A stretch of 60,500 nt of DNA from assembly GCA_017445015.1 (NCBI GenBank), contig JAFSVL010000023.1, forward strand, positions 1 to 60,500, in the 5' to 3' direction. Source of the DNA: Bacteroidales bacterium (lineage in GTDB: Bacteria > Bacteroidota > Bacteroidia > Bacteroidales > UBA932). Positions 4,106 through 59,670 of the stretch are shown piece after piece. The notes beneath the pieces were generated by a model. That model had not been told where the DNA came from, did not search any database, and saw only the letters and a list, made by a program, of their open reading frames with translations. The stretch's first letter is position 1. Each line of letters begins with the position of its first letter. Made by a program: the position numbers and the translations under genes.

Positions 4106-4108
4106 TCT

Positions 4109-6152: not shown

Positions 6153-6175
6153 AACTGAAACAATATTGTACGATT

Positions 6176-8596: not shown

Positions 8597-8603
8597 TGAA
8601 TAT

Positions 8604-8714: not shown

Positions 8715-8734
8715 GTATTTTATCAATATGCCAG

Positions 8735-14742: not shown

Positions 14743-14745
14743 TTT

Positions 14746-15312
14746 ATGAAAAAAGATATCATACTTTGCGGCGTCGGCGGGCAGGGAATCCTGTCCATAG
14801 CGACGGTCATCGGAGAGGCGGCGACGGCTGCCGGCCTGTATCTCAAGCAGGCCGAGGTGCATGGCATGAGCCAGCGGGGCGGCGACGTGCAGAGCCATCT
14901 GCGCCTTTCCTCGGAGCCCATTTACAGCGACCTGATTCCTCTCGGCGGGGCGGACCTCATCGTCTCCATGGAACCGATGGAAGCCCTGCGTTACCTGCCT
15001 TGGCTGGGCGCGGAGGGAACGGTCGTCACCGCATCCAAGCCGCTGGTGAACATCCCCGACTATCCGGAAGAAGCCGCCCTGCACGCAGAACTCTCGAAAG
15101 TGCCGCATCTGGTCTGCGAAGACATCGATGCGATGGCCGCGAAGGCCGGGAATCCCCGGGGCGCGAACATGGCCTTGCTGGGCCTGGCGGCCCCTTATAT
15201 CGGTATATTGGATAGAAATGCCCTCCGGGAGGCCATGAAGCGCGTATTTACACCCAAGGGCGAGGCTGTCGTTGCAATGAACTTGAAATGCTATGATCTG
15301 GAACAGTCATAA
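14746..15312 (+). CDS. iorB: Indolepyruvate oxidoreductase beta subunit
   Basis: A 188-residue gamma-type 2-oxoacid oxidoreductase domain. 'LCGVGGQGILSIATVIGEAA' and 'EVHGMSQRGGDVQSHLRL' are diagnostic. It forms the CoA-side partner of IorA, converting a 2-oxoacid plus CoA to acyl-CoA, CO2 and reduced ferredoxin, or the reverse. It starts 3 bp after iorA, and its last 20 bp overlap paaK, which supports a stable functional unit. Confidence 0.94.
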   Translation: MKKDIILCGVGGQGILSIATVIGEAATAAGLYLKQAEVHGMSQRGGDVQSHLRLSSEPIYSDLIPLGGADLIVSMEPMEALRYLPWLGAEGTVVTASKPLVNIPDYPEEAALHAELSKVPHLVCEDIDAMAAKAGNPRGANMALLGLAAPYIGILDRNALREAMKRVFTPKGEAVVAMNLKCYDLEQS

Positions 15313-32272: not shown

Positions 32273-32918
32273 ACAGCACGATCACCGTATCGTCCTTGAC
32301 AAGGAAGCGGATGGTTCTGCCTTTAAAACTGAGGGCATAGACGCGCTCCGGGTCATCTTGATAGGCCGGTCTGGGGTCGGCTGCAAGGAGTTCCCTGAGC
32401 CCCTGGGCGTCTTCTCCGAGCGCTTCCGCCAATTGTGCGGGAAGTTCTACTTCCAGTGATGGAAATACAATATGGTCCGTGTATCCGGCGCGTGCGTCCG
32501 CATGCGCATCGGCATAAGGGAGATAGGGCTTGATGTCGTAGATGGGCGTTCCGTCCGCGAGGTCCGCCCCCGAAACGCTGATCCCGTCCGCCGAGATTCC
32601 CTCTATTCGTACGCAGGAGAGCCCGAGCGGATTGGGACGGAAGGGGGAGCGGCTGGCAAAGACGCCCACGCGGATATTCCCGCCCAGCCTTGGCGGGCGT
32701 ACGGTGGTTTTCCCTTCTGCGGCGGAGGCGTTCAGAGAGAATCCCCAGATGGGCCAGGCATAATCGAAGCCCTCCAGCCCGCGCAGGGCTTCCGTGCCGC
32801 GGAAGGCGGGTTCCAGAACCACTTTGCCTCGTAGCGATGCCGCCACCCCGCTTTGCCGCGGGATGCCGAACTTTTCCGGGAGGGGAGAACGGAAATATGC
32901 GACAGGCTCGATGTTCAT
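32271..32918 (-). CDS. trmO: tRNA (t6A37) N6-methyltransferase TrmO
   Basis: A 215-residue TsaA/YaeB-family protein that uses S-adenosylmethionine to methylate t6A37 of ANN-decoding tRNAs to m6t6A. 'PVAYFRSPLPEKFGIPRQSG' is the N-terminal start of the beta-barrel domain, and 'SRSPFRPNPLGLSCVRI' with 'DGTPIYDIKPYLPYAD' are the family signatures. The short C-terminal domain is present. It overlaps the M23 peptidase stop by 4 bp and is the last gene of the minus-strand run, convergent with tRNA-Cys. Confidence 0.93.
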   Translation of the reverse strand: MNIEPVAYFRSPLPEKFGIPRQSGVAASLRGKVVLEPAFRGTEALRGLEGFDYAWPIWGFSLNASAAEGKTTVRPPRLGGNIRVGVFASRSPFRPNPLGLSCVRIEGISADGISVSGADLADGTPIYDIKPYLPYADAHADARAGYTDHIVFPSLEVELPAQLAEALGEDAQGLRELLAADPRPAYQDDPERVYALSFKGRTIRFLVKDDTVIVL

Positions 32919-34147
32919 TCGCTGATTTCCTTCATATAGCGCATATAGAGCGAGTCCAGTTGCGCTTTGTTCTCTTTTTTGATCGGGACGCCCTCGGGCT
33001 GCGTTGCACTGACAATCTTGAGCGGATTGACCGGTTTCCCGTTCTTGGTGATACGGAAATCCAGGTGCGGACCTGTGGAATGTCCTGTGGAGCCTACGTA
33101 GCCGATGGTCTGTCCCTGCCTGACGCGCACACCGCTCCGGATGCCTGCGGCAAATCTGGAGAGATGCAGGTATTTGGTCTCGTACTCTTTGCGGTCGTGC
33201 CGGATCTTGATGTAGTTCCCGCCGCCGCCTTTGTCCCAGCCTGCAAAGACGACGGTTCCGTCACCGACCGTGTGTACGGGCGTCCCGGTGGGGGCTGCAT
33301 AATCGACGGCGGGATGCATCTTCTTCCGTCCCGTGATGGGATGGATACGTACGCCGAACCCGCTGCTGATGCGCTTGAATTGGAGGGGTGCCTTAAGGAA
33401 GCCCTTTTCACTGCGCAGGCTGATGCCTTTCTCGTTCCAGTATTTGTTGCCGTCCTTCTGGTCCAGGTAAATGGCTGCCGCGCTTTTTTGTCCTTCGCCG
33501 GTATAAAGGGAAAAGAAAACCGTATCTACGCGCAGCGGCTGTCCCTCGCAGAGGGTCTGGTTGTAGATGACGCGGAAGCGGTCGCCTTTGCGGAGGCTGA
33601 AGAAATCGATGGTCCATGCGTAAATCTCCGACAGTTCCATGATGAGGTCGGGGGAAGCGCCGTCCGCAAGCAGGGCATTCCAGAGCGATGACTCTATGCG
33701 GATGTCCGAGATGCGCCGCTCATGCGTGACGGGCTTTTCCACCTTCCATACGGCGAGGGAGTCAAAGCATTTGAAGACCGTACTGCGTACGGGATTCTGC
33801 GGATAGACGATGTAGCGCAGGGAACCGGGCGTCGTGTCGGCATAATAGACGTCAAGGCTGTCGTGGGCCCGGAAATCCCGGCTGACCTTGAAGATGCTGT
33901 CACAAATTTTCGTCAGGGTGTAGGCGGTTGACGGGGACGCACCGAGTTCTTGAAGCGTTCCGGAGAGCGTCTGCCCGTAGCCGATGCGGTAGCCTTCGCG
34001 CCTCAGGGTATCGGTCAGGAACCCCAGAGGATAGACCGTATCCTTTTGCGGGGTGATTTCCGCGACGGCGGGCGCCTGCCGTTTGCACAGGCAGCCCGGG
34101 AGGGAAAGCACCAGCAGTGCGGTCAATATGATGGTCCTCCGCTTCAT
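32915..34147 (-). CDS. M23-family metallopeptidase lipoprotein
   Basis: A 410-residue envelope peptidase. The signal peptide ends in the lipobox 'LSLPGC'. A long N-terminal region resembles the LysM/OapA-like part of Bacteroidota M23 proteins ('YGQTLSGTLQELG'). The LytM domain (about 265-375) has 'GRKKMHPAVDYAAPTGTPV' with His and Asp zinc ligands and 'GHSTGPHLDFRITKNG'. The last motif is HLD in place of the usual HLH, a form I recall as frequent in Bacteroidota, so it may still be active. It probably cleaves peptidoglycan cross-links. It starts 3 bp after the symporter stop and overlaps trmO. Confidence 0.9.
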   Translation of the reverse strand: MKRRTIILTALLVLSLPGCLCKRQAPAVAEITPQKDTVYPLGFLTDTLRREGYRIGYGQTLSGTLQELGASPSTAYTLTKICDSIFKVSRDFRAHDSLDVYYADTTPGSLRYIVYPQNPVRSTVFKCFDSLAVWKVEKPVTHERRISDIRIESSLWNALLADGASPDLIMELSEIYAWTIDFFSLRKGDRFRVIYNQTLCEGQPLRVDTVFFSLYTGEGQKSAAAIYLDQKDGNKYWNEKGISLRSEKGFLKAPLQFKRISSGFGVRIHPITGRKKMHPAVDYAAPTGTPVHTVGDGTVVFAGWDKGGGGNYIKIRHDRKEYETKYLHLSRFAAGIRSGVRVRQGQTIGYVGSTGHSTGPHLDFRITKNGKPVNPLKIVSATQPEGVPIKKENKAQLDSLYMRYMKEISE

Positions 34148-34150: not shown

Positions 34151-35788
34151 TTATGAGAGAATCAGCGCCCCTACCGCCCACATGAAGGCGAAGATAGCGA
34201 TGGAAGCGACGAACATCTTGAGGAGCCCCATGCCGACATCATGCCCGTCCGCCCTGACCAGCGCTTTGAAATGGGCGATGACCTCGGGCTTTTCCGGTGC
34301 CGTGAGGTAAGTGGCTGCGAGCCAGGCGACCGTAGTGATGGCGATCGTCCAAAGCAACTTTTCGTAAAAGAGGAGTTCAACGGGCGAAATATGGGGCCAG
34401 ACGCGTTGGAAAAAGAAGGCGCAGAGGATGGAGACGCCCATGGCGACAATCTCCGTCCAGGCATTGATGCGCATCCAGAACCAGCGGAGCAGGAAGATGA
34501 TGCCTGTCCCGGCGCCGATCTGGACCATCATATTGAAGCCGTCCTTTGCGCTCTCGAACAAAGGCACCATAACGCAGCCCAGCACCATCAGGACGATGGA
34601 GGTTATCCGGGCAACCAGAATCAGTTCGCGGTCGTCGGCGTCCTTCTTAATGAATCGCTTCCAGATATCGTTCGTGACATAGTTCGCGCCCATGGAGATC
34701 TGTGCGGCGATGGTGGAGAACAAGGCCCCCATCAAGGAAGCCGCGACAAGGCCGATCCAGCCGTTCGGAACAATCTTGATCAGCGCAGGGTAGGCCATAT
34801 CGTCTCCAACGAGCGCCGGATCCACATTGGGAAATGCTTCGCGGATGGAATCCAGGTTGGGGAAGATGAGAATCGAAGCGAAGGCTGCGATATACCATGG
34901 CCAGGGGCGAAGCGCATAATTGAGGATATTGAAGAACAGCGTGCCGCCTATGGCATGGTTCGAACTTTTTGCCGTGAGCATGCGCTGGACGATGTATCCG
35001 CCGCCGCCGGGTTCGGACCCGGAATACCAGACATTCCACCATTGCACGGCTACGGGGATGAGGAAGATGGCGATAAAGGCTTCCTTGTTGGAGATATCCG
35101 GGAAAAATGAAAGCCGCGAAGTGACTTCCGGATTGCCCATCAGTTTCGACCATCCGCCTACGGAGGGATGGATGATGCTGTAATGCATGACGGCAAAGGC
35201 TCCGGTCATCACCACCGCGAAGATGAAAAAATCCGTATAGATGGTGCCCCGGATGCCGGACAGGGAGGAATAAATGATGGAGACGACCGCAGTTACGATA
35301 AGCACCGTGGATGCCGGCACGCCGAACAGGACCACGCCGATTTTGACCGCTCCCAGCAGTACGGTCGCCATTACGACCAGGTTATAGATGACTCCGAGGT
35401 ACAGCGCCCGGAAACCGCGCAGGAATGCGGCGGGCTTGCCCGAATAGCGAAGTTCATAAAAGGAAATGTCCGTCGTTGCTCCGGAGCGGACCCAGAGTTT
35501 GGAATAGACGAAGACCGTGAGCATGCCGGTCAGCAGGAACGCCCACCAGACCCAGTTCCCGCTGAGTCCGTCCCGGCGTATGATCTCGGTGAACAGGTTC
35601 GCACTGTTCGTGCTTGTCGTCGCGGCGACCATGGAAATGCCGATCAGCCACCAGGGCATGGTCCCCGCGGATTTAAAATACTCGCTGGCTCCCTTCCCCT
35701 TGGACTTCATGGCGGAGATTGCCGGAATGAGGAGCAAGACTGCGAAAAACGCAGCCATCACTGTAAAATCAACCCAATTCAGATTCAT
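34151..35788 (-). CDS. Sodium:solute symporter (SSS family, SGLT-like)
   Basis: A 545-residue transporter with about 13-14 membrane helices. 'AATTSTNSANLFTEIIRRDGLSGNWVWW' (seen in parts) and 'GYIVQRMLTAKSSNHAIGG' are typical of the glucose/galactose-type SSS branch in Bacteroidota. It is the last gene of the sugar-acid catabolic operon before the M23 peptidase, so it most likely imports that operon's monomer with sodium. It starts 12 bp after the cupin-MBL gene. The substrate is inferred from context only. Confidence 0.9.
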   Translation of the reverse strand: MNLNWVDFTVMAAFFAVLLLIPAISAMKSKGKGASEYFKSAGTMPWWLIGISMVAATTSTNSANLFTEIIRRDGLSGNWVWWAFLLTGMLTVFVYSKLWVRSGATTDISFYELRYSGKPAAFLRGFRALYLGVIYNLVVMATVLLGAVKIGVVLFGVPASTVLIVTAVVSIIYSSLSGIRGTIYTDFFIFAVVMTGAFAVMHYSIIHPSVGGWSKLMGNPEVTSRLSFFPDISNKEAFIAIFLIPVAVQWWNVWYSGSEPGGGGYIVQRMLTAKSSNHAIGGTLFFNILNYALRPWPWYIAAFASILIFPNLDSIREAFPNVDPALVGDDMAYPALIKIVPNGWIGLVAASLMGALFSTIAAQISMGANYVTNDIWKRFIKKDADDRELILVARITSIVLMVLGCVMVPLFESAKDGFNMMVQIGAGTGIIFLLRWFWMRINAWTEIVAMGVSILCAFFFQRVWPHISPVELLFYEKLLWTIAITTVAWLAATYLTAPEKPEVIAHFKALVRADGHDVGMGLLKMFVASIAIFAFMWAVGALILS

Positions 35789-35800
35789 ATGTTATTTTTT

Positions 35801-37048
35801 TCAATGATACGAAGGGTTTGTGTCTAAATGCTGTGTTACTGTATGCAGTGCAAGGAACAGGGCTTCCGGCATCCCGCAACCCACTTCTCCGATGAGTTTG
35901 CGCGCTATCGTGACCGGTTCGTCTTCCACCGGCACGCCGGCGGCAAGGTATTCCCGTATCTTTCGGTCGTAACATTCAATGCACCCGGCGCTGTACCGGA
36001 GCGCGTCGCTGACCGCCGCCTTTCCTTTTACGACACTGCCGATGCCGTCGTATTCGTGTCCGCAGACGATATTTTCGAAATTCTCCTGCGACATCTGCTC
36101 CAGGGTATGGCGATAAGCTTCCAGGTCCCTGTAAAAGCCGATTCCCTGCGTAGGGGTTCCGTTGGCCTGCAGGGAATCGCCCGTGAAGGCGGTACCGGTC
36201 CGGCTGTCTATCCAGGTAAGGCAGTCGTCGTCATGTCCGGGGGTTGAGAGGGCATAGAATCGCCCTTCCAACAACTCCCTTTCTTCCAGCAGTTTGTCCG
36301 GCTCCACCCCGATCAGGCAGGATTGCGGGGCGGGGGAGTTCTTCGGGAAACGGGTCCTGACGCGCACCGAGACTTTCACAGGATCCCGCAATGCGTCCGC
36401 CGCACATTTCAAGGTCGCCGTTTTGAGGCCGTATTTCTTGACCAGCGCGTAATGTCCGCCGATATGGTCGCCGTGTACATGCGTATTGAGGAGCCAGTCG
36501 ATATCGCCGATTGTCATTCCCAATGTCTCGAGTGCGGGAATCAGGTATTTCTCTGGCTCCAGATGGGAGGAATCGATCAGGATGTTTTTCTCTCCGCGGA
36601 CGAGGATGATGCCCGTCCAGACCGGCCCGAACGGAACTTTGAGCAGAAAGGTGTCCGGAAGGACCTCCTCAAATTCGGGACGTTTTTGGAAAACGGCGCC
36701 TGTCTCCAGTGAAAGATAGTCCGTATTGTCCTTCGACGTATCGGCGTTTTCCGCAATCAGTACGCGGGCGTCTTTGGATACAAAGATATTATGCCAGATG
36801 CCCGCGCGGATGTTATAATATTTCAAGGGCTGCATCTCCACGCGCACGGCCTTTTCGCCGATCAAAAGTGTGGCTTTCCCCTGAAGGAGGACGAAGGTCT
36901 CGTCCGTGAGATTGTGCCGCTCCAGCTCGACGATGTTCTTTTCCTCGAAGCGGGGGGCCCAATTCAGGGTCGCCAGCGTCCATTTAGCGTTGTTTACCAG
37001 CCTGCGGTAGCCTTCGCCGCCGTTGTCAATGATGTCCAGTCCGTTCAT
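35801..37048 (-). CDS. Cupin-like / metallo-beta-lactamase fold fusion protein
   Basis: A 415-residue two-domain protein without signal peptide. Residues 20-105 read as a small cupin-like barrel ('ELERHNLTDETFVLLQGKAT' then 'YYNIRAGIWHNIFV'). Residues 125-330 form an MBL hydrolase with 'NTHVHGDHIGGHY' (His190, His192, Asp194, His195), 'TPGHDDDCLTWID', 'AFTGDSLQ' and 'VCGHEYDG', a complete binuclear metal set. In this operon an MBL hydrolase could open a sugar lactone, with the cupin binding an acid or acting as an isomerase; both roles are inferred. It lies 6 bp after the DUF1116 gene. Confidence 0.82.
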   Translation of the reverse strand: MNGLDIIDNGGEGYRRLVNNAKWTLATLNWAPRFEEKNIVELERHNLTDETFVLLQGKATLLIGEKAVRVEMQPLKYYNIRAGIWHNIFVSKDARVLIAENADTSKDNTDYLSLETGAVFQKRPEFEEVLPDTFLLKVPFGPVWTGIILVRGEKNILIDSSHLEPEKYLIPALETLGMTIGDIDWLLNTHVHGDHIGGHYALVKKYGLKTATLKCAADALRDPVKVSVRVRTRFPKNSPAPQSCLIGVEPDKLLEERELLEGRFYALSTPGHDDDCLTWIDSRTGTAFTGDSLQANGTPTQGIGFYRDLEAYRHTLEQMSQENFENIVCGHEYDGIGSVVKGKAAVSDALRYSAGCIECYDRKIREYLAAGVPVEDEPVTIARKLIGEVGCGMPEALFLALHTVTQHLDTNPSYH

Positions 37049-37054
37049 AATGCG

Positions 37055-38071
37055 TTATTCCATATATACAGGCATGCGTGTGGAGCCGGCACCCATCCAG
37101 CCGCCGTTCACGTCCATCATGCCGCCGTTGATGACAAGTCCTTTCCCTTCTACGCCGAAGTCGGGGTTGATCGGACGGATGGTCCCGCCCCAGCCGCGAC
37201 ATTCGACGACGGAACTGTCGCCCAGCCACGGCAACTGGTTTTCTTTCCTGGCCCCGGGCGTGAGGTAAGGACCGATAATCATTGGTGAAGGCGCGACCTT
37301 CCATACGCCGTCAACTTTGATTCCATATTCCACGCCGTTTCCTCCGGCTGCGGTCATCAGGCCCTTGACCCCCTGTTTTTCGAGACCCAGGAGCAGCGCC
37401 CGGCTTGCCGCCTGTCCGAAGTTGTGCGTAAAGCGGTTTGTTGTCGCAAAATAGTCCATGAGCGCATCCCGGTTCGGACATTTCAGGACATAAGGGATGA
37501 TGGCACGGGTGAATAGCGGATCCATCGCCTTCTGGGAAGAGTGCAGTTCATCTCCCATGCGGAGCGCTTCATGGAAAAGTTCCTTCATCGGAAATCCGCC
37601 GGCGTCTTTAAGGACGGCAATGAGCGGAGGGAAGAGTCCGTCTCCGAGCCATTTCAGGTGGGCTGCGATTTCCTCTGAATAGATGCCCCAGCCGCAGAAT
37701 CCGCCGCCGAATCTGCCCTCGGCGGGGAAAAGTCCCGCAACGCCTCCGGTCTGCCGGTCTTCGACAATCAGCAGGGGAACGCTTTGCGTGATGATGCCGT
37801 AGCCCGAGCCATTGGTCGCGTAGTCGAAAGCCGCCTCCAGCCGGATTTCCCCGGATTCGAGCCTCCGGACGGCTTCCGCCTCCGTTTTGGCCCAGCCTTC
37901 AAAGAAACAGGCGTTCACCATGCTGCGCCGGTGTCCCGGACACATCCGCTCAAACGTAATCGGGGGCCCTGCATGAAGTATGGTTTTGTCCGGGAGCCCC
38001 AGAAATTCTCCTGCTTTCCGCACGTCAATCCAGTACGGATCGCCTTGCCATCGTAATTCTTCAGCTTTCAT
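37055..38071 (-). CDS. DUF1116 / AllG (YlbE)-like protein
   Basis: A 338-residue soluble protein. 'SVPLLIVEDRQTGGVAGLFP', 'LKDAGGFPMKELFHEALRMGDELHSSQ' (in parts) and 'RFTHNFGQAASRALL' resemble the DUF1116 family, which includes E. coli YlbE/AllG, a component of oxamate carbamoyltransferase in allantoin breakdown. Typical family members are over 400 residues; this one is shorter, and neither FdrA nor AllH is adjacent. A carbamoyltransferase role in a sugar-acid operon would be unexpected, so the real reaction may differ. The start overlaps the end of the flavoprotein gene by 11 bp. The family call is moderate. Confidence 0.65.
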   Translation of the reverse strand: MKAEELRWQGDPYWIDVRKAGEFLGLPDKTILHAGPPITFERMCPGHRRSMVNACFFEGWAKTEAEAVRRLESGEIRLEAAFDYATNGSGYGIITQSVPLLIVEDRQTGGVAGLFPAEGRFGGGFCGWGIYSEEIAAHLKWLGDGLFPPLIAVLKDAGGFPMKELFHEALRMGDELHSSQKAMDPLFTRAIIPYVLKCPNRDALMDYFATTNRFTHNFGQAASRALLLGLEKQGVKGLMTAAGGNGVEYGIKVDGVWKVAPSPMIIGPYLTPGARKENQLPWLGDSSVVECRGWGGTIRPINPDFGVEGKGLVINGGMMDVNGGWMGAGSTRMPVYME

Positions 38072-39122
38072 CGTTTTTCAATTCTAAAGCGGCCTCCCGT
38101 CCGGCGATGGTGCCGAAAACCATGGCCGCCGTACCGCCGTTCCCGCCCAGGCGGTTGAGCCCGTGTACCCCTGCCGTCACCTCGCCGCAGGCAAACACGC
38201 CCGGGACGATATTCCCCTCGGCATCGAGCGCATGGCATTTGGCATCGATGACGATTCCGCCGAGCGAGGAATGCGGGGCCGGAGCCACCTTGATGATGCG
38301 CTCCGCCGGATCCATTTTACATTCGCGGAGTTTTTCTTCGGGTACGGCTGTCAAATCATACATTGCGGTTCCGCCTATGCCGAAAATGGCCTTAGAGAGT
38401 TCGTCCTTGTCCAGACGGGCGTCTTCCAGGAATTCCTTCCCCTCCGGGGTCAGCAGCCTGGCCCCCTCATAAAGGAGGGTGGTGATGACCGGGATGCCGC
38501 GCTTCGGTCCCTCGGTCCGCACGGTCGGTTCGTACTGCACATGCGCTTCGTCCACATCCTTCAGCGCCGCTCCCAAAGCCTCCGCCATCACGAGTCCATC
38601 GCCTTTCAGGTAGGACGGATTCGTGGAAAAATCATATTTGCCGCACCATCCGCCTGTGGCGATGATGATTTGCACGCCGGGAGCCGCCGCCCGCAGCGTA
38701 AGGACATCGTCCGCACTTACCGTCCGCTTTTCCACCTTCACCCTGCCTTCAAGGCGCTCTTTGATTTGTTTTAATGCGATGGCGCCGATGGCGTGCCGGA
38801 TGGATACGCAACGCGGCACGGAAGAGCCCACGGGATGGAGAACCGTACCGTCGAATGCGAACTCATCTTTGAGCGACAGGGATGCGCGGCACATCGTTTC
38901 CACAAGGGGACGGTCGTTCCGGTACTTGCCGCTCTTGAGCGAGTCTTCGATAAACTGTTCTACCGAATCCTCGGGAAGGACAGGGCAGTTAAGGGCGTGG
39001 ATATCGGGGCTGTTCCCGGATCCGTTGGCGACCAGGGTGACGCGGGCGCCCCCTGCAAGGGCCGCTTCCGCAGCCCGCCATCCGGCAAGTCCGCCGCCGA
39101 TAATGAACACCCCGCTCCGCAT
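38061..39122 (-). CDS. FAD-binding protein of the fumarate reductase / NadB type, compact
   Basis: A 353-residue flavoprotein. 'VFIIGGGLAGWRAAEAALAG' is the FAD Rossmann motif, 'IIIATGGW' the second dinucleotide strand, and 'ACGEVTAGVHGLNRLGGNG' the C-terminal flavin signature of succinate/fumarate and aspartate oxidases. Family members are usually 480-600 residues, so this is a compact version. It has no signal peptide. I start at ATG 39122, one base after the kinase stop; a longer frame from 39161 overlaps the kinase. It may oxidise or reduce an intermediate of the operon's substrate. The close coupling to the DUF1116 gene suggests they act together. Confidence 0.8.
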   Translation of the reverse strand: MRSGVFIIGGGLAGWRAAEAALAGGARVTLVANGSGNSPDIHALNCPVLPEDSVEQFIEDSLKSGKYRNDRPLVETMCRASLSLKDEFAFDGTVLHPVGSSVPRCVSIRHAIGAIALKQIKERLEGRVKVEKRTVSADDVLTLRAAAPGVQIIIATGGWCGKYDFSTNPSYLKGDGLVMAEALGAALKDVDEAHVQYEPTVRTEGPKRGIPVITTLLYEGARLLTPEGKEFLEDARLDKDELSKAIFGIGGTAMYDLTAVPEEKLRECKMDPAERIIKVAPAPHSSLGGIVIDAKCHALDAEGNIVPGVFACGEVTAGVHGLNRLGGNGGTAAMVFGTIAGREAALELKNDES

Positions 39123-39123
39123 G

Positions 39124-40149
39124 CTATCTTTGTACCCTTCCGCTTGCGTTTCCTGCCGCAAGGGCTTCGACCTCCTGCACGGAGACCAGGTTGAAATCGT
39201 GTTCTATCGAATGTTTGAGGCAACTTGCCGCAACCGCGAAGTCAATCGCTGCCTGCGTTTCCTTGCCGGAAAGCAGTGCGTAGATGAGGCCACCTCCAAA
39301 ACTGTCGCCTCCGCCTACGCGGTCCACGATGTGGACTTTGTACTCGGTGGAAAAGCAGGCCTTTTGCGTCTTGGCATCATAGAGCATTCCGGCCCAGAGA
39401 TTGTCAAATGCGGAAAGCGAGGTACGCAGGGTAATGGCCACTTTCTTTACGCCGAAGCGCTCTACGAGTTGTTCCGCGACGGAAACATACCCCAGTTTGT
39501 TCAGTTTTCCCGACTCTACGTCGCTTCCTTTGCCCACGATGCCGAAGACATCGGCGGCATCCGCTTCATTGGCAATCAGCACATCCACATAGGGGACCAG
39601 TTCCGCCATCACCTTCCCGGCTTCCTGCTTCGTCCACAGTTTGCCGCGGTAGTTCAGGTCGCAGGAAACCGTAATCCCGTGTTCCCGGCAATATTTGAGC
39701 GCATCCAGACAGACTTCCGGCATTTCTCCGCCCAGGGCGGGCGTGATGCCGGTGAAGTGGAACCAGTCCGCATCCTTGAAGATTCCGGCCCAGTCGAAAT
39801 CCCTGCGGGAGGCCGTTGCAATGGACGAACCGGCGCGGTCGTAAACCACTTTGGAGGCCCGTTGCGAAGCACCCTTTTCTACAAAGTACAATCCGAGACG
39901 CTTTCCGCCCCAGACGATATCGCGGGTATCCACTCCGAAATGCCGGACCGCGTTTCTGGCGGCTTCTCCCAGCGGATTTTCGGGAAGTTTGGTTACGAAG
40001 GAAGCGTCCACGCCATAATTGGCCAGGGATACGGCGACATTGGCTTCTCCGCCGGCATAGGACGCTTCGAATTTATCGGCCTGGGCAAACCGGAGATATC
40101 CTTCGGGGTTCAGGCGCATCATGATTTCACCAAAAGTAACGACTTTCAT
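39124..40149 (-). CDS. kdgK: 2-keto-3-deoxygluconate (KDG) kinase, PfkB family
   Basis: A 341-residue ribokinase-family enzyme. 'VTFGEIMMRLNPEG' opens the protein, 'YAGGEANVAVSLANYG' is the substrate-binding N-terminal signature, and 'DRVGGGDSFGGGLIYALLSG' is the catalytic ATP-site motif with the base Asp. The sequence fits bacterial KDG kinases that make KDPG. The adjacent aldolase gene (5 bp upstream in the transcript) cleaves KDPG, which supports the call. Confidence 0.92.
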   Translation of the reverse strand: MKVVTFGEIMMRLNPEGYLRFAQADKFEASYAGGEANVAVSLANYGVDASFVTKLPENPLGEAARNAVRHFGVDTRDIVWGGKRLGLYFVEKGASQRASKVVYDRAGSSIATASRRDFDWAGIFKDADWFHFTGITPALGGEMPEVCLDALKYCREHGITVSCDLNYRGKLWTKQEAGKVMAELVPYVDVLIANEADAADVFGIVGKGSDVESGKLNKLGYVSVAEQLVERFGVKKVAITLRTSLSAFDNLWAGMLYDAKTQKACFSTEYKVHIVDRVGGGDSFGGGLIYALLSGKETQAAIDFAVAASCLKHSIEHDFNLVSVQEVEALAAGNASGRVQR

Positions 40150-40154
40150 AAGAT

Positions 40155-40769
40155 TCAGATTTGAGCATTTTTGACAAGCGCCGCAGCCGTAGCCGTAATT
40201 TTATCCCACGCCCCGGCGGCGATCCATTCTTTGTTGGTCAGGTTCCCGCCCACGCCCGCACCGATGCAGCCGGCCTTGATGAAGTCGGCGATGTTGTCGG
40301 GGCCTATGCCGCCGACCGCGAGCATCGGAATGTGCGAAAGCGGCGCCTTGATGGCTTTGATGTATCCGGGACCGAGCGTTCCGGCTGGAAAGATTTTTAC
40401 ATAATCGGCGCCGGCATCAAACGCTTCCACCGCCTCGGTCGGTGTGAGCGCCCCGGGCATCGCCTCCAGTCCGTCGGCGACGCACTTGCGGATGAGCGCC
40501 GGGTTGACGTTGGGCGTTACCATGAATTCGCCGCCGGCATCTTCGCAGATTTTCAACTGCTCCTCCGTCAGTACGGTGCCGGCGCCGACCTTCATCGCGC
40601 CGCTGAATTGTTCCTTGATGGCCCGGATGGCCCGGGCGGTGTCTTTCCAGCTGTCGGGAGCCTTCTGGTTGAAGGTGACTTCAACCCTGTCGATTCCGCC
40701 TTCGGCGTAGGCCTGGGCGAGCCGCAGGCAGATGTCCGGCGCAAAGCCTCTGATAATCGCTACAATCAT
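40155..40769 (-). CDS. eda: KDPG / KHG aldolase
   Basis: A 204-residue class I aldolase that splits 2-keto-3-deoxy-6-phosphogluconate into pyruvate and glyceraldehyde 3-phosphate. The catalytic Glu lies in 'VEVTFNQKAP' and the Schiff-base Lys in 'DYVKIFPAGTLGPGYIKA'. 'LAVGGIGPDNIADFI' is the phosphate-binding loop. Length is normal. It sits between the dehydratase that would make the keto-deoxy acid and the kinase, with 3-5 bp gaps. Confidence 0.94.
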   Translation of the reverse strand: MIVAIIRGFAPDICLRLAQAYAEGGIDRVEVTFNQKAPDSWKDTARAIRAIKEQFSGAMKVGAGTVLTEEQLKICEDAGGEFMVTPNVNPALIRKCVADGLEAMPGALTPTEAVEAFDAGADYVKIFPAGTLGPGYIKAIKAPLSHIPMLAVGGIGPDNIADFIKAGCIGAGVGGNLTNKEWIAAGAWDKITATAAALVKNAQI

Positions 40770-40772
40770 AAT

Positions 40773-42425
40773 TTATTCCCAGATTCCTCCGTGGGCCATG
40801 GAGCCCACATTTTTAACGAAAAGATTCAGATAACGCGGATATTTGGCCCCGTCGAACTTCCAAGAGAAGTCTTTCTTGCGGGATTCCAGTTCAGCGTCCA
40901 CCTCGATTTTCCGCCCCGGAATATCGATGATGATGATGTCTCCGTCCTTGATGAGCCCCAGCGGGCCCATCAGTGCGGCTTCCGGAGATACATAACCGAC
41001 GGAAAGGCCGGACGAACCGCCGGAGAAACGTCCGTCTGTAATGACGGCGCAGGATTCAAAGAGTTCCTTGCGTCCCTTCAGCATCTCCTGGAAGGTGAAG
41101 GCCGTCGTTCCGAAACGTCCCTTGAGCCCGAGGAAGCGCAGTACACAGGCATCCCCGGTTTTGATTTCCCCCTTTTTGAGCGCATCGAGCGCATCGTCGA
41201 GTTCATCGAATACCCGGGCGGGACCTTTGAAGGTCATCAGCCTGGGGGGCACGGCGGCAATCTTGACAATGGCCCCCTCGGGAGCCAGATTGCCGTACAG
41301 TACGCCGATTCCCGGCATCTTCATGACGGGACGGTCCAATGAATGGATGACGTCGCGGTTATAGACTTTGGCATCCCGGACATTTTCGGCGAGTGTCTTT
41401 CCGGTAACGGTGAGGCAGTCGCCGTCGAGTTTCGGCAGGAGTTCCTTGATGAGCGCGGGCATTCCGCCTGCGAGGCAGAGGTCATGCACGGAGTACCTGG
41501 GTCCGCTGGGCACGATGTGCGCCAGCAGGGGAATGTCGTTGGAGGCTTCGTCGAAGTATTTCCACCACGGTTCGTCGTATCCCGCTTCGTGGGCGATGGC
41601 CGGAATATGGAGAATCAGGTTCGAGGACGCGGCCACCGCCATATCCATCTTGATGGCGTTCCTCACCGACTTCGGCGTGATGATCTTCCTTGCGGTGATT
41701 CCTTCTTCAACCAGGCCCATGATCCGCCGCCCGGCCTGATAGGCCATCAGATACAGTTCGCTGGAAGTGGCCGCAACGGTCGAATTGCCCGGAAGGGACA
41801 TGCCCAGCGCCTCGGCGACCATGCACATGGAGTTGGCCGTCGTCATGGACGTACAGCCTCCGCAGGTGCCCCAGGAATGTACGATCAGGTCATTGTATTC
41901 GTCCGGGTCGATCCGTCCCGCCTCCATCGCGCCGACTTTGTCCTGCGCGTGGATATGGATTACCTCTTTGCCCCGGCAGATGCCGTGCGGCATGTATCCG
42001 CCCGTCACCATGATGGCGGGGATATCCAGCCGGGCTGCGGCCATCAGATGCCCGGGAACGATGGAATCGCAAGTAGAAAGGAGGACCATTCCGTCAAAGA
42101 AGTTGCCCTCGACGGTGATTTCCACCTGGTCGGCGATGGAATTGCGGCTCGGAACCTCGATGTATTTGGGATCCTTTTCGACCATCCCGTCGCAAATCGC
42201 TGTCGTCATGACCTCCAGGGGAAGGCCGCCGGCATCCCGGATTCCGGCTTTCACCCGTTCGGCCAGTTGTTTGAGGTGGACATGTCCGGGATTATATTCG
42301 TTCCACGAGTTGACCACGGCGATGCGCGGTTTACCCTGCTCCTCGGCGGAATAGCCCATCCCGCACATCAGTCCCCGGCGGCATTCGCCCGCCTGGGAGA
42401 ATTCCCACTGACTTTTCAGCGCCAT
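40773..42425 (-). CDS. IlvD/Edd-family sugar-acid dehydratase
   Basis: A 550-residue iron-sulfur dehydratase. Cluster ligands are in 'STCDSIVPGHLMAA' and 'GTCGGCTSMTTANSM', and the family signature '[16 protein letters not shown]' is near the end. It differs clearly from the biosynthetic IlvD at 2273-4105. With KDG kinase and KDPG aldolase directly downstream it most likely dehydrates an aldonate (gluconate-, xylonate- or arabonate-type) to a 2-keto-3-deoxy acid. The exact sugar acid cannot be read from the sequence. It follows the SDR gene by 1 bp. Confidence 0.88.
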   Translation of the reverse strand: MALKSQWEFSQAGECRRGLMCGMGYSAEEQGKPRIAVVNSWNEYNPGHVHLKQLAERVKAGIRDAGGLPLEVMTTAICDGMVEKDPKYIEVPSRNSIADQVEITVEGNFFDGMVLLSTCDSIVPGHLMAAARLDIPAIMVTGGYMPHGICRGKEVIHIHAQDKVGAMEAGRIDPDEYNDLIVHSWGTCGGCTSMTTANSMCMVAEALGMSLPGNSTVAATSSELYLMAYQAGRRIMGLVEEGITARKIITPKSVRNAIKMDMAVAASSNLILHIPAIAHEAGYDEPWWKYFDEASNDIPLLAHIVPSGPRYSVHDLCLAGGMPALIKELLPKLDGDCLTVTGKTLAENVRDAKVYNRDVIHSLDRPVMKMPGIGVLYGNLAPEGAIVKIAAVPPRLMTFKGPARVFDELDDALDALKKGEIKTGDACVLRFLGLKGRFGTTAFTFQEMLKGRKELFESCAVITDGRFSGGSSGLSVGYVSPEAALMGPLGLIKDGDIIIIDIPGRKIEVDAELESRKKDFSWKFDGAKYPRYLNLFVKNVGSMAHGGIWE

Positions 42426-42426
42426 A

Positions 42427-43236
42427 CTATGCCTCGTTTAGCGGAAAATTCATGGATTCGATGGACCCGTCGCAGGATTGTCCGCCATCGACGCAAATCA
42501 CCTGCCCGACGATAAAGCGGGCCTTCTCGATATCGGCGAGAAACTGAATCATCGGAACGATTTCATCGACCGTCCCGCCGCGTCCGGCCGGAATCTTGTG
42601 CGAGAAAGAGACCAGGTCTTCTTTGGAATAGCGGTCGGAAAGTTTGGTGTAGATGAATCCGGGCGCCACACAATTGACGCGGATGCCGTATTTCGCGACT
42701 TCGACGCCCAGCGCCTTGGTAAACATGTTGAGCCCTCCTTTTCCTGCGGAATAGGGGAGCATGCGGCGATGGACCCAGGTGACCTGGCCGTGTACGGACG
42801 AAATATTGACGATGCGTCCCTCGGTCTTCTTTTCCACCATATCCGCTACCGCATAGCGGGACAAGTAGGCGGCGGCGTTCAGGTTCAGGGCAATCTGGCT
42901 GTCCCAGTATTCCATGGGCATATCCTTGAATTCTCCTTTGGGGCCGCCGGGAATCTGCAGCGCTCCGCCGGCGTTATTGATCAGGACATCGATTTTTCCG
43001 AAGGTGGCGATAAAGTCCTCCATCGTGGCCTTACACCAGTCGTGGTCCCCGACATTGCCGAGATAGATTTTTGTTTTGACCCCGTAGGCCTCGCACTGAC
43101 GTGCGACTTCCCGGGCTCCTTCGGCGCTTTTGTTCCCGCAGATGCCGATATTGGCACCTTCATCCCGTGCGAAGGCAATCGCACAGCCGGCACCGATGCC
43201 GTGGGATGATCCGGTAATCAGAATATTCCTTGCCAT
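42427..43236 (-). CDS. SDR-family sugar dehydrogenase
   Basis: A 269-residue short-chain dehydrogenase. The cofactor motif is 'ITGSSHGIGAGCAIAFA', the structural motif is 'VLINNAGG', and the catalytic Ser and Tyr-Lys lie in 'VNISSVHGQ' and 'LPYSAGKGGLNMF'. It resembles glucose 1-dehydrogenase-type SDRs and is in the right place to oxidise the imported sugar to a lactone or acid. It lies 15 bp after the secreted hydrolase and 1 bp before the dehydratase. An alternative role is reduction of a keto-uronate. Confidence 0.9.
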   Translation of the reverse strand: MARNILITGSSHGIGAGCAIAFARDEGANIGICGNKSAEGAREVARQCEAYGVKTKIYLGNVGDHDWCKATMEDFIATFGKIDVLINNAGGALQIPGGPKGEFKDMPMEYWDSQIALNLNAAAYLSRYAVADMVEKKTEGRIVNISSVHGQVTWVHRRMLPYSAGKGGLNMFTKALGVEVAKYGIRVNCVAPGFIYTKLSDRYSKEDLVSFSHKIPAGRGGTVDEIVPMIQFLADIEKARFIVGQVICVDGGQSCDGSIESMNFPLNEA

Positions 43237-43251
43237 ATTGTTAAGATAGGA

Positions 43252-46125
43252 TTAGTCCAGCGAAAGGGTAACGGATACCTTGTGCGTCTCGCCCGGCCTG
43301 AGGGTATAGGCGCGGTCGCGGTAAATCGTCCCGGTCTCCATCGCCACGGCTCCCTCGGGGGCTACGTAGGCCACGAACTTGATGCCTCCCGTAAAGGCGG
43401 CGCTTACCCGGCGTTCTCCGTCCACAAGGGTATATTTCCCTTCACCGCAGTTAAAAACGATGCCCGGCTTTCCGCCCGAAATGAGCTGTACGGGGAAATC
43501 GCCCTCCCAAATGCGGTCGTGGCCTTTTTCGGCCTCGTATTTCCAGAAATATCGGCTGCCCGACAAACCCTCGATGCGGCAGTTCGTCGGATGCGAAACC
43601 CGGAAGAAAGGATGCAGGAGTTCGGTGCAGGAATACGGATGGTCGTCCGTATTGGTAACCCTGAATTCGGCTGTAAGCGTCTCTCCGAGGCGGTATTCCA
43701 TCTCGGCGTGGAACTTGTGCGGCCACACCCGGCGGCTGGATTCACTGTCTTCAAGGACAAATACCGCCTTTTCTTCGGTAAGGGAAGCGAGCGTCCAGTC
43801 AAAGTAGGGGGTAAGACCGTGAATTTCGCATCCCTGACGGCCTTCGTAGATGGCCCAGGGCCAGTAGATGGGAATGCCGGGATTGCCCAGTACCTCGGGT
43901 TTTCCCACAGGCTTCCAACTGCGCATATTGGCACCGCGCAAATCCACGCGCGCCGTGCCGCAGGCATTGGAAAGGACGACCTGGGTCGCGGGCTGCGAAA
44001 CGCTTTCCAGCCAGGCGATGTCCTGCCCGGACAGTTCCAGCAGCGAAGCCAGCCGGTAGGTTCCGCCCCAGGTCATCAGGTGGTCATTGAGGCTGCCCCT
44101 CTTGTTCTCGCCGGTGCGGTACTTGCTCCAGCGCGTCTGGAACCAGGCCTCGTTCTTCGACCCCACGGGGCGTTCCAGCGCGTGCCAGATATTGCGGTTT
44201 TCGTCGGCGAATCCCTGGGTCCCGTTGCGCCACATCAGGGCCGCCACTTCCTTCCACATGTCGTCTCCGTCCACTTCGGAAAGCGTGAACAGTTCCGAAA
44301 TCAGCAGGTTCCCGTAATCGTCGAGGGCGGCGTGCTCCGTGCCGACGATGGTGGCTCCCGCAGGACGCCAGTTATAGACGGAAAGGTCCAGGTCCGGGCC
44401 ATAGACGGGATTCTGGAGATAGACCCAGGACAGGAAATACCATCCCGCCTTGCGGGCGTATTCCAGATATTTATGCTCCCCGGTCATCTTCCACATCTCC
44501 ACGGCGGCCGACAGGAAGGGCTGGATGCCCTCGCGGTCCACGCTGGAGCAGTCCATCGCGCCGCCGTTGCACTCGAAGCGGTCGATGTCCCGCCCATAAT
44601 AATAATGGAAAGCGCGGTCGATGGCTTTCCGGACTTCCGGATCGCGGCCCAGCTTCCAGTAGCGGACCAGCCCCATCAGTACATAACCGCCGCAGTCACC
44701 GGCGGAGTTGATCATCTTTCCCGTAATGAAATCCCATTGCGAACCCAGTCCGCCGTCTCCGGGAAGTACTGCAAGCAGCGCCTTCACGACGCGGGCGGCC
44801 GATTGCGCAAACTCGTCCGAATAGGCTTCGGCATCAATGCCCAGGGCCTGGATTTCCGCCTTATGCTCTCGCAGGAACATCACCGTACGGGCCAGTTCAC
44901 CGATGGACCAGCCCACTTCCGACGCATCGGTAAAGGTCTTTCCCGGAACGGGTTTGCTTCCGCGGCGGAAGAAGCCGCTTTCCTGCTGCCGGACGCGGAT
45001 CCAGCTGCGCAGCACTTCGCATCCGAAGCGCACACCCTCCGCATCCCCGTCTTTGAGGGCATATTCCAGCGTCAGGCGGGCACGCTGGAAACTCTGGGAG
45101 GCGAAGCCGATATTGATTGTTCCCGGCCCGAAGAGGTATTCCCCCGGGGCAAGGCGTTTGGCCTTTTCAATGTCGTCGTTTTTCCAGCGGTTGAGCGTAA
45201 AGTCCTTTTCGTAGTCTTCCAACGTGTATCCTTCCTTGGAACGGGGGATGTTCATATAGCCCATCGTGAACATCTTCTCGTCGTGGCCGCCGCCGAACCA
45301 GGAACCCTCGTCGTTGCGCCGGCGGGTCCAGTCCATGAAGGAGCGGTCCAGGCGGACGGTTTCGTCGATCGTACGCTGGGCCCTGGTTTCATGATCCAGG
45401 AGTTTCCAGGCCACCGGGAATACGGCGGTAAATCCGTAGTTTTCCCATTTCGGGCGTCCCATGCAGGCGTAAGCGGTAACGCGGTAACTTTCGCCGGGTG
45501 CAAGGGTGATATAGTGGTGGTAGGGCCCGGTGAACTTACGTTTGTCCGTATAGGATACGGGGGCCTCGGTCATCGGCCAGTAAATCAGGTGACGGAACGA
45601 ACCGTCGGGTAGCTTTTCCAGGGAACTGGACCCGGTGATGGAATTGAGGTCCGCGTCTGAGGCAAAGAGGCCGAAGGCGCTGCTGCGGTCCTCGCTGATG
45701 CTACAAGCGGGGATGCTGCTCCGGTCGCCCGCAAAAATCCACGGCTGTCCGTCTTTCTCCCAGCCGTTGGGCATGGCGGTGGAGAAGGCGCGGCCGTCGC
45801 TGAGGATGAAGTCCCCGACAAACTCGTTGCCGTTGTAGAGCACGCCGGGAATGAGATAGCGGGAAGCCTTGATGCCCGGTTCGGCGCTCAGGACCAACTT
45901 GAAGGTGCAGGACGCTGAAGACCGGTTGACGGCGGTAAGGTCAATATGCCATACTTTTGTGCCTTTGCCGAAATCCTTGGAAGCGGGAAGGGGAGATATG
46001 TTCAGTTCCGTTTTCAGGCCTTCCGCGGCGGGAAGGGTCTCAGCCTTGAATACCGGTTTTTTTCCGGCTGTCGCCATGCACGATAAAACAAGGGGGAAAA
46101 TAAGGGTAAGCAACGATTTTTTCAT
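43252..46125 (-). CDS. Secreted six-hairpin-type hydrolase fused to a mutarotase-like domain
   Basis: A 957-residue exported protein with a signal peptide ('LIFPLVLSC', a possible lipobox at Cys16). Residues about 25-225 look like an N-terminal beta-sandwich. Residues about 240-700 are rich in paired helices with aromatic and acidic clusters ('GWSIGELARTVMFL', 'DCGGYVLMGLVRYW', 'CNGGAMDCSSVDREGIQPF'), as in (alpha/alpha)6 glycoside hydrolases or lyases. Residues about 718-957 resemble hexose-6-phosphate mutarotase folds ('GIPIYWPWAIYEG', 'VTNTDDHPYSCTELLHPFF'). I do not recognise a numbered GH family. It is the first gene of the catabolic operon and probably releases its sugar. Confidence 0.75.
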   Translation of the reverse strand: MKKSLLTLIFPLVLSCMATAGKKPVFKAETLPAAEGLKTELNISPLPASKDFGKGTKVWHIDLTAVNRSSASCTFKLVLSAEPGIKASRYLIPGVLYNGNEFVGDFILSDGRAFSTAMPNGWEKDGQPWIFAGDRSSIPACSISEDRSSAFGLFASDADLNSITGSSSLEKLPDGSFRHLIYWPMTEAPVSYTDKRKFTGPYHHYITLAPGESYRVTAYACMGRPKWENYGFTAVFPVAWKLLDHETRAQRTIDETVRLDRSFMDWTRRRNDEGSWFGGGHDEKMFTMGYMNIPRSKEGYTLEDYEKDFTLNRWKNDDIEKAKRLAPGEYLFGPGTINIGFASQSFQRARLTLEYALKDGDAEGVRFGCEVLRSWIRVRQQESGFFRRGSKPVPGKTFTDASEVGWSIGELARTVMFLREHKAEIQALGIDAEAYSDEFAQSAARVVKALLAVLPGDGGLGSQWDFITGKMINSAGDCGGYVLMGLVRYWKLGRDPEVRKAIDRAFHYYYGRDIDRFECNGGAMDCSSVDREGIQPFLSAAVEMWKMTGEHKYLEYARKAGWYFLSWVYLQNPVYGPDLDLSVYNWRPAGATIVGTEHAALDDYGNLLISELFTLSEVDGDDMWKEVAALMWRNGTQGFADENRNIWHALERPVGSKNEAWFQTRWSKYRTGENKRGSLNDHLMTWGGTYRLASLLELSGQDIAWLESVSQPATQVVLSNACGTARVDLRGANMRSWKPVGKPEVLGNPGIPIYWPWAIYEGRQGCEIHGLTPYFDWTLASLTEEKAVFVLEDSESSRRVWPHKFHAEMEYRLGETLTAEFRVTNTDDHPYSCTELLHPFFRVSHPTNCRIEGLSGSRYFWKYEAEKGHDRIWEGDFPVQLISGGKPGIVFNCGEGKYTLVDGERRVSAAFTGGIKFVAYVAPEGAVAMETGTIYRDRAYTLRPGETHKVSVTLSLD

Positions 46126-46222: not shown

Positions 46223-46234
46223 TTATTATCTTTG

Positions 46235-46309
46235 TGGGACCTGGCAGATTCGAACTGCCGACCTCTTGCGTGTGAAGCAAGCGCTCTAAACCGACTGAGC
46301 TAAGGTCCC
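46235..46309 (-). tRNA. tRNA-Val (CAC)
   Basis: The acceptor arms GGGACCT and AGGTCCC pair, with A as discriminator. CTTGC and GCAAG flank the loop TTCACAC, giving anticodon CAC. The T-arm is GGCAGTTCGAATCTGCC. No CCA is encoded. Confidence 0.95.
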
Positions 46310-57588: not shown

Positions 57589-58590
57589 ATGAAAATCGTT
57601 ACCTCTGACTCAATATGATTTGAAGTTATTGACGACGAAAAAGGATTGATCCTTTACAACACTCCGGACGGTCGAAGCAAAGTGGCTTTGATGGCACGTG
57701 ACGGGATGGTCTGGCTGAATTAACAGAGCATTGCTGAACTTTTTGGGACCTCAATCCCGAACATCTCAATCCATATATCTAATATATTCAAAAATAATGA
57801 GTTAGACAAGGATTCAGTTGTTAAGGATTATTTAACAACTGCCGAAGATGGGAAGACATACCATGTTATGTTCTATTCGTTGCCCATGATCCTTGCCATC
57901 GGATACAAGGTTAAAGGAATACGAGGTGTTCAGTTCCGTCGTTGGGCTACGGATCATCTGTCTGAGTACTTGGTGAAGGGTTTTACAATGGATGACGAGC
58001 GTTTGAAGAATCCTGACGGCCGTCCTGATTATTTCGATGAACTCTTACTCCGAATCCGAGACATCCGGGCCTCGGAAAAAAGATTCTACCAAAAGATTCG
58101 TGACCTGTTTGCCCTTAGCAGTGACTACGATAAGACAGACAAAGCAACCCAAATGTTTTTTGCGGAGACGTAGAACAAACTCCTATATGCTGTTACCCAT
58201 AATACAGCCGCAGAGCTTGTATATCATAGAGCGGATTCCCAAAAGCCGAATATGGGTCTAACCACATGGAAGGGCAATACAGTCCGAAAGGGAGATATCA
58301 TTCTGGTTACCATTTTCTTGGAGAACGCTGAACTTCGGGTCAAGGAGCGTAAGGACCTGACGATTGATTACTGGAAACAAAACGTTAATTCACTCTTGAC
58401 TTTCCAGGGGAAAGATATTCTCTCCGGTAAGGGTACGATTTCAAATGATGAGGCGGAAATCAAAGCCAGAGAAGAATACGAAAGCTTTGATGCTCGCAGA
58501 AAACAGTTTGATGCCATCCAAGCGGACCAAGATGACATCATGGAGCTTGAAGAGTGGTCAAAATCAAACAAATTGAAGAATTCCAATTAA
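57589..58590 (+). pseudogene. Virulence RhuM family protein, broken by three stops
   Basis: One frame from ATG 57589 reads as a RhuM-family protein: 'GMVWLN', 'QSIAELFGTSIPNISIHISN', 'VQFRRWATDHLSEYLVKGF', 'MDDERLKNPDGRPDYFDELL' and, further on, 'AAELVYHRADSQKPNMGLTT'. It is interrupted by TGA (57616), TAA (57721) and TAG (58171). The latter two fall where the family has Gln, consistent with C-to-T changes. The region after 'NTVRKGDI' also seems to lack about 25 residues. Such genes sit beside type I restriction loci in Bacteroidota; their function is unclear. Low GC content compared with the rest of the window suggests acquisition. Confidence 0.85.
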
Positions 58591-58774
58591 GATACAAGTC
58601 CTTCTCGCGCAGATATTTTTAGGACGTTGTCTGATTCTCCATTACAAAATGTTCAAAAGTCTAGAAAGAAGAATACCTTCACGCAGTAGTTTTGCTTCTA
58701 CCCCAGGGTGTTCTCGCACAAGACTCAAATCCATAATAAGAGAATGGTAAGATTATCCTGAGGTTCGGTAGAGT

Positions 58775-58799
58775 GGAGCCTCTAAATTGCAGAGGCTCC
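58775..58799. terminator. Hairpin between the RhuM remnant and the recombinase
   Basis: GGAGCCTCT and AGAGGCTCC form a perfect 9-bp stem around AAATTGC. It lies 16 bp beyond the recombinase stop and probably terminates that transcript. The remaining sequence from 58591 to 58774 shows no gene. Confidence 0.55.
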
Positions 58800-58814
58800 G
58801 GATGATGCATCGAA

Positions 58815-59618: not shown

Positions 59619-59670
59619 AAGCACATTGATTAGAGTTAAACTTAAAAGGGTTGTATCTAATAATGTACAG

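Follow-up and report, generated by a model that had tools for sequence, protein, structure and literature searches.

A recurrent gene module with a short flavoprotein and an AllG protein in a sugar-acid operon of a Bacteroidales bacterium, possibly encoding a variant of Route III

Gene content of the operon

In a 60,500-nucleotide stretch of contig JAFSVL010000023.1 (GenBank assembly GCA_017445015.1; this whole stretch is hereafter called the window) from a Bacteroidales bacterium, we analyzed a putative sugar-acid catabolic operon of nine open reading frames (ORFs), g1 to g9, which follow one another closely between 46125 and 34151 of the minus strand (Table 1). The intergenic spacings in transcription order were 15, 1, 3, 5, 1, -11, 6, and 12 bp, and the Pfam families matched from g1 to g9 were Aldose_epim, SDR (short-chain dehydrogenase/reductase), ILVD_EDD, KDPG/KHG aldolase, PfkB, FAD_binding_2, AllG, Lactamase_B, and SSF. 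These ORFs, families, and spacings (-11 to +15 bp) agree with a sequence-only reading of this DNA, which had described nine minus-strand genes at the same position with gaps of 15 bp or less and had proposed a sugar-acid catabolic operon, a proposal that the present analysis supports. Five of the genes, encoding the SDR, the IlvD/Edd dehydratase, a short flavoprotein, AllG, and a metallo-beta-lactamase (MBL) fold hydrolase, make up a module that recurs in Bacteroidales, Verrucomicrobiota/Kiritimatiellota, and Bacillota, and the likeliest reading of the operon is that it encodes a known pathway in variant form, two of the enzymes being new.

Table 1. Genes of the operon and adjoining features in the window (KDPG, 2-keto-3-deoxy-6-phosphogluconate; KDG, 2-keto-3-deoxygluconate; Gal forms, the galactonate counterparts)
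Feature	Length (aa)	Position	Strand	Assignment or proposed role
tRNA-Val		46234..46309	-	immediately precedes g1; a hairpin with a T-rich tail comes after it (judged by eye)
g1, probably secreted (signal peptide by eye)	957	43252..46125	-	probable glycosidase, family unassigned
g2, SDR dehydrogenase	269	42427..43236	-	proposed aldose 1-dehydrogenase
g3, IlvD/Edd dehydratase (PF00920/PF24877)	550	40773..42425	-	proposed aldonate dehydratase
g4, KDPG/KDPGal-type aldolase	204	40155..40769	-	family match
g5, PfkB kinase, KDG/KDGal kinase type	341	39124..40149	-	family match
g6, short FAD_binding_2 flavoprotein	353	38061..39122	-	proposed 2-keto-3-deoxyaldonate 3,4-dehydrogenase
g7, compact AllG (DUF1116, PF06545)	338	37055..38071	-	proposed 2,4-diketo acid-cutting enzyme
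g8, cupin + MBL fold hydrolase	415	35801..37048	-	proposed lactonase
g9, sodium:solute symporter (SSF)	545	34151..35788	-	family match
M23 peptidase gene		32915..34147	-	starts 3 bp after g9; treated as a neighbour outside the module

The predicted structure of g1 begins with a beta domain, continues with an (alpha/alpha)6 barrel (residues ~249-707), and ends in a mutarotase-like domain, and the Aldose_epim match lay at residues 750-855 of 957. This model, which refines the earlier description of g1 as a hydrolase-mutarotase fusion, is weak (mean predicted local distance difference test score of 61); the g1 alignment held 10 hand-chosen sequences, with L015 and L027 omitted for frame errors (related loci are cited here by L numbers). 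The dehydratase g3 scored below the curated ilvD cut-offs, whereas a second IlvD-type protein in the window (2273-4105), 35% identical to g3, scored above them; this second gene heads a run (2273-11921) with acetolactate-synthase-like, ketol-acid reductoisomerase, and isopropylmalate-dehydrogenase-like genes.

Alignments of the SDR, dehydratase, flavoprotein, and MBL contained 37, 40, 37, and 38 rows, respectively, that passed length and score filters. The start of g6 is most likely the ATG at 39122, giving 353 aa, and not the TTG at 39161, from which g6 would overlap the kinase gene. In fold family g6 resembles succinate dehydrogenase/fumarate reductase, and it keeps a His and an Arg that bind a substrate carboxylate in those enzymes; it differs in its short length and in two replacements seen in 37/37 aligned module rows, HPT to EPT and Arg to Lys, the Arg being the catalytic one of succinate dehydrogenase/fumarate reductase. 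The g7 protein matched the full PF06545 profile with 137.9 bits and has a fold like that of PDB 3clq; its family, formerly DUF1116, is now named AllG in Pfam after a subunit of oxamate carbamoyltransferase. For g8, PDB 3d0j supported the cupin half, and the zinc motif of the MBL half (HxHxDH plus His, Asp, and His; H190, H192, D194, H195, H272, D291, and H331) was complete in 38/38 rows.

Conservation of the module in relatives and across the genus

A scan with AllG recovered 55 related loci, 48 of the module kind and 7 ordinary AllF-AllG loci, and the module loci were distributed among Bacteroidales (12), Verrucomicrobiota/Kiritimatiellota together with unassigned relatives (16), and Bacillota (20; Clostridia and Erysipelotrichaceae). 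Genes were counted when they occurred anywhere in the fetched stretch above score thresholds, several contigs being cut by their ends; in L038, for example, the KDPG aldolase that was counted lies 5 kb off on the opposite strand. L058, which covers the same stretch as L013, was not counted separately. Among the 48 module loci the flavoprotein was present in 43, the MBL in 41, the dehydratase in 39, the SDR in 36, the aldolase in 34, and the kinase in 28. The flavoprotein, AllG, and MBL are thus among the most constant parts of the operon and are not passengers. Their tight coupling had been put forward in the sequence-only reading, which would have been contradicted by their absence from homologous loci; the counts for the flavoprotein and MBL, together with the presence of AllG in 8/8 dehydratase-bearing genomes of the genus (see below), show the opposite.

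The five core genes occurred without KDG kinase and aldolase in the fetched stretches of L014, L022, L039, and L040. When the flavoprotein was sought genome-wide, it was found in 8/8 genomes, including those of L019, L020, and L024, whose AllG locus lacks the gene; in the L024 genome it was present as two pieces at contig ends. The other loci in which it was missing, L041 and L045, are cut contigs. In-frame fusions joined MBL and AllG in L015, L016, and L029 and, in L017 and L020, the symporter and a mutarotase-like domain. In genome G413 the operon was broken between the flavoprotein and the MBL-AllG-symporter genes, with the halves on different contigs (L020 9118-13544; L059 3356-9693). DUF5696 proteins, weakly similar to GH101 or DUF6259, recurred beside the module (L023 6-1478, L022 7125-8609, L021 14287-15747, and L007 3031-4461) and may be an additional glycosidase for its sugar.

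Because the module loci had been fetched with AllG, a converse test took the dehydratase as its starting point, with an E-value limit of 1e-100, and covered 300 genomes of the genus. Some of the 48 module loci, L012 and L013 among them, come from these genomes. The dehydratase was found in 8 of these genomes, the source genome included, and AllG in 9; all 8 carried both genes, on one contig in 7 cases, and the ninth AllG lay at a contig end. The probability of such an overlap by chance is ~6e-15 if species are treated as independent. In a wider sample of 119 genomes of the family, the two genes occurred together in one, the source genome. The operon is therefore rare and accessory, and its genes travel jointly.

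AllF, the kinase exchange, and the AllG tree

The CoA-ligase-like protein AllF was present in 17 of the 20 Bacillota module loci, and 16 of these 17 also carried an acetate-kinase-family kinase, the exception (L045) being a 3.4-kb contig. This kinase was found in 0/31 module loci without AllF and in 0/7 ordinary AllF-AllG loci. Carbamate kinase, in contrast, was found in none of the 48 module loci (nor among the nine operon proteins) versus 6 of the 7 ordinary loci, one of these being the source of the query protein, which its family model confirmed as carbamate kinase; the contrast in kinases between module and ordinary loci gave Fisher p values of 2e-5 and 5e-5. The seven ordinary loci had none of the sugar genes of the module, and L055 stood beside an AllS-type allantoin regulator. 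In L051 (8174-11212), and likewise in L052, L053, and L056, ORFs of ~1000 aa carried AllF in the first half (residues 12-590 in L051), their second half coinciding with the AllG match, and are probable AllF-AllG fusions.

No AllF match was found in the source genome, an incomplete 2.3-Mb assembly (~80% complete), or in any of the 28 Bacteroidota/Verrucomicrobiota loci; it was also absent from 11 whole genomes without a cluster AllF, save for a weak 30% match in G420, in a search that recovered 2/2 positive controls. AllH was detected in 6 module loci at the set threshold, with L033, L034, and L042 added at a looser one; it was found neither among the nine proteins, the source genome being otherwise unsearched for it, nor in the 28 Bacteroidota/Verrucomicrobiota loci.

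Of 56 AllG sequences, 51 entered the alignment and tree; the called frame of L004 was too short, and L051, L052, L053, and L056 did not pass the ORF filter. A branch with 100/100 support split the module proteins from the oxamate type, which is represented by only three rows, with a warning of long branches, and 43 positions conserved in every module group carried a different residue in the oxamate-type rows. AllG rows free of AllF fell in three places of the tree: all Bacteroidota and Verrucomicrobiota, L039 with L049, and L040 on a weak branch.

Proposed pathway

Route III is a non-phosphorylative pathway of pentoses and 6-deoxyhexoses in which an aldose dehydrogenase, a lactonase, a dehydratase, a 4-dehydrogenase, and a diketo acid hydrolase lead to pyruvate and glycolate or lactate (Watanabe 2019, PMC6336799). 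To judge by their families, the SDR, MBL, IlvD/Edd dehydratase, flavoprotein, and AllG could map one to one onto these five steps, and the operon shares with Route III, whose acid-sugar dehydratase is of the IlvD/Edd or enolase family, an IlvD/Edd dehydratase beside a possible aldose-dehydrogenase SDR. The sequence-only reading had seen no place in the known pathway for the flavoprotein, the DUF1116 protein, and the cupin-MBL protein, a view not borne out given this fit to Route III (PMC6336799); the extra oxidation step that it suggested is judged likely. The 4-dehydrogenase of Route III is an NAD-dependent SDR and its cleaving enzyme belongs to the fumarylacetoacetate-hydrolase family, whereas the operon would use the flavoprotein and AllG; it also adds a KDG kinase and a KDPG aldolase. 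An SDR-type 4-dehydrogenase was not found among the nine proteins, which include one SDR only, the rest of the genome not having been searched for SDRs.

From the gene content, co-occurrence, kinase exchange, and fusions observed above, we infer the individual reactions and the sugars, with a probability of roughly 40% that the operon serves the import and oxidative breakdown of a sugar via a rebuilt Route III, the last two enzymes of which come from unrelated families. The g1 protein would free the sugar and g9 would import it, the SDR would oxidize the aldose to a lactone that the MBL hydrolyses, and loss of water catalyzed by the IlvD/Edd enzyme would give a 2-keto-3-deoxyaldonate. The flavoprotein, a relative of succinate dehydrogenase, would then dehydrogenate C3-C4 to (the enol of) a 2,4-diketo-3-deoxyaldonate, a step with a precedent in succinate dehydrogenase itself, which is reported to oxidize malate to enol-oxaloacetate (PMC10825186). 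AllG would split the C3-C4 bond to yield pyruvate and a 2-hydroxy acid, which would be glycolate for a pentose, lactate for a 6-deoxyhexose, and glycerate for a hexose. In Bacillota with AllF and the acetate-kinase-family kinase the cut may be phosphorolytic, giving an acyl phosphate and then ATP, and in Bacteroidota and Verrucomicrobiota, whose loci are without AllF and the acyl kinase, it would be hydrolytic. The KDG kinase and KDPG aldolase could draw off the same keto-deoxy acid along a second, phosphorylated branch, an advantage if hexoses also enter.

AllFGH splits oxalurate with phosphate into carbamoyl phosphate and oxamate, with the carbamate kinase AllK alongside. In Escherichia coli, 7% of oxamate was reportedly restored by allFG and 16% by allGH, two partial combinations that have AllG in common (PMC11326118). 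The module resembles this system in the family and fold of AllG and in that most Bacillota loci also have AllF, some have AllH, and a possible acyl-phosphate kinase is present; it differs in that AllF was not detected in the source genome, the relatives carry an acetate-kinase-family kinase, the gene partners are sugar-acid genes, and the AllG proteins form a separate clade. Oxalurate (H2N-CO-NH-CO-COO-) and a 2,4-diketo acid (R-CO-CH2-CO-COO-) share a skeleton, with CH2 for NH and R for NH2; pyruvate is an isostere of oxamate, with CH3 for NH2; and both reactions balance with phosphate. This isosterism would explain both the recruitment of AllG and the acetate-type kinase in place of carbamate kinase. 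We tentatively suggest, while considering it rather doubtful, that module AllG cleaves a C-C bond of 2,4-diketo sugar acids (acylpyruvates), that with AllF the cleavage is phosphorolytic and yields pyruvate and an acyl phosphate from which the acetate-kinase relative forms ATP, and that this would be an energy-conserving branch by which anaerobes break down sugars oxidatively, its enzyme being derived from, or ancestral to, oxamate carbamoyltransferase. If so, a clade of DUF1116 (AllG) would gain a function outside allantoin metabolism, the AllFGH enzymes, identified in 2024, would have a second chemistry (C-C cleavage), and rumen and gut anaerobes would possess a sugar-acid route able to gain ATP by phosphorolysis. 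Given the isostere argument, a handful of enzymes and simple keto acids would suffice to test the proposal. Among the matches listed in full-text searches of one library, none linked AllG to sugar acids.

Genes adjoining the module in four loci resemble those for oxidizing 2-hydroxy acids (lactate or glycolate), as would be produced by a rebuilt Route III. A LutA-like gene follows the symporter by 9 bp in L009, where the contig is cut, and in L013, where LutB- and LutC-like genes come next, and a GlcD-like gene with EtfBA adjoins the module in L046 and L047.

Several observations weigh against this proposal. The hydroxy-acid genes adjoin only 4/48 loci, and the LutB- and GlcD-like proteins score below the curated family cut-offs. 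We know of no FAD_binding_2 enzyme that acts on sugar acids. The AllG of the window stands without AllF in its genome as far as assembled, and therefore its mechanism would have to be changed, or the MBL or another partner would have to help; in E. coli, single all genes, AllG included, are reported to have restored nothing (PMC11326118). The Arg that follows the MGDE.H motif of AllG is Ser or Cys in 28/28 Bacteroidota/Verrucomicrobiota rows and is kept in the others, a loss that AllF does not explain, since three AllF-free Bacillota keep the Arg. The Route III hydrolase family (PF01557) had no match in the source genome and was absent from 11/12 module genomes; because 81/81 genomes of the genus were likewise without it, this absence is no evidence of replacement. 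Lastly, a KDG kinase homologue was present elsewhere in 9/9 genomes whose locus lacks the kinase, and therefore a phosphorylated route may be the main one.

Alternative explanations

Such a phosphorylated route would be a semi-phosphorylative Entner-Doudoroff pathway, in which the SDR, MBL lactonase, IlvD, KDG kinase, and KDPG aldolase lead to pyruvate and glyceraldehyde 3-phosphate and the flavoprotein and AllG prepare the substrate, for instance by taking off an acyl, ether, or N-linked group or by adjusting its stereochemistry. We regard this as possible but, on balance, not likely. The operon does resemble the semi-phosphorylative Entner-Doudoroff/De Ley-Doudoroff systems in combining a dehydrogenase, an IlvD/Edd dehydratase, a KDG(al) kinase, and a KDPG(al) aldolase, and the last two enzymes are kept in most module loci, in addition to the kinase homologues found elsewhere in the 9 genomes. 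The fetched stretch of L036 contains an HpcH/HpaI-family aldolase but lacks a KDPG aldolase, so that a keto-deoxy acid is likely cleaved there by an aldolase; in L003 alone, a glucosamine-6-phosphate-deaminase-family gene 4 kb behind the module hints at an amino sugar. Kinase and aldolase are, however, missing from the loci (20/48 and 14/48 fetched module loci, respectively) more often than the flavoprotein, MBL, and dehydratase, and the AllF and acetate-kinase-type kinase (16/17) would be left without a clear substrate. To our knowledge, the flavoprotein and AllG are no part of these pathways, and a recurring modifying enzyme could have escaped among the neighbouring gene clusters, which were annotated in part. 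At L003 16377-19015, behind the GH43 gene of the module, lie two glucosamine-6-phosphate deaminase-like genes, one confirmed as Glucosamine_iso family, an arrangement seen in this locus only.

The fusions of MBL and AllG in three loci, and the presence of a hydroxyacylglutathione hydrolase among the PDB matches of the g8 MBL, would also suit a scheme in which the two proteins act as one hydrolase, AllG moving an acyl group to a thiol or phosphate and the MBL hydrolysing the resulting acyl compound, with lactone opening either spontaneous or left to a different enzyme; we consider this improbable, as Bacillota loci with AllF and the acyl kinase keep the MBL too, mostly next to the SDR. Least probable, to a degree that we give it little credence, is a carbamoyl or nitrogen-containing substrate, with AllG contributing to a carbamoyl transfer like that of oxamate carbamoyltransferase. 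The family membership of AllG is set here against the failure to find AllF in the source genome, the distribution of carbamate kinase between module and ordinary loci, and the separation of module AllG from the (three) oxamate-type rows in the tree and at the distinguishing positions. Of the substrate proposed in the sequence-only reading, the carbamoyl part is accordingly disfavoured, with carbamate kinase in 0/48 module loci and the acetate-kinase-family kinase in 16/17 of those with AllF, whereas a nitrogen-containing substrate may still be involved.

Genomic surroundings

The g1 gene begins ~110 bp behind the tRNA-Val gene; accessory DNA commonly inserts at tRNA genes, and the module is confined to 8-9 of the 300 genus genomes. 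At the other end the codirectional run extends past 34151 with the M23 peptidase gene and then an overlapping TrmO gene; this pair also stands behind the operon in L002, the nearest relative, among the first 15 relatives whose ORFs were examined, and both genes were counted as neighbours of the operon. An Rfam scan of the window matched no family except tRNA. Sigma-70-like and terminator-like sites between 31800 and 46700 were at chance level, and internal promoters in the operon may exist, because the scan does not cover promoters of Bacteroidota. The closest named relatives of the source organism are Bacteroidales, many of them from rumen or gut and including a Candidatus Cryptobacteroides. 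Elsewhere in the window, G+C content was 0.43 at 58001-60000 versus 0.51-0.62 in the other 2-kb steps, and two 2-oxoacid:ferredoxin oxidoreductase subunits (POR families) lay together with an AMP-binding ligase at 13189-16603, genes that by eye resemble those for indolepyruvate oxidoreductase and phenylacetate-CoA ligase.
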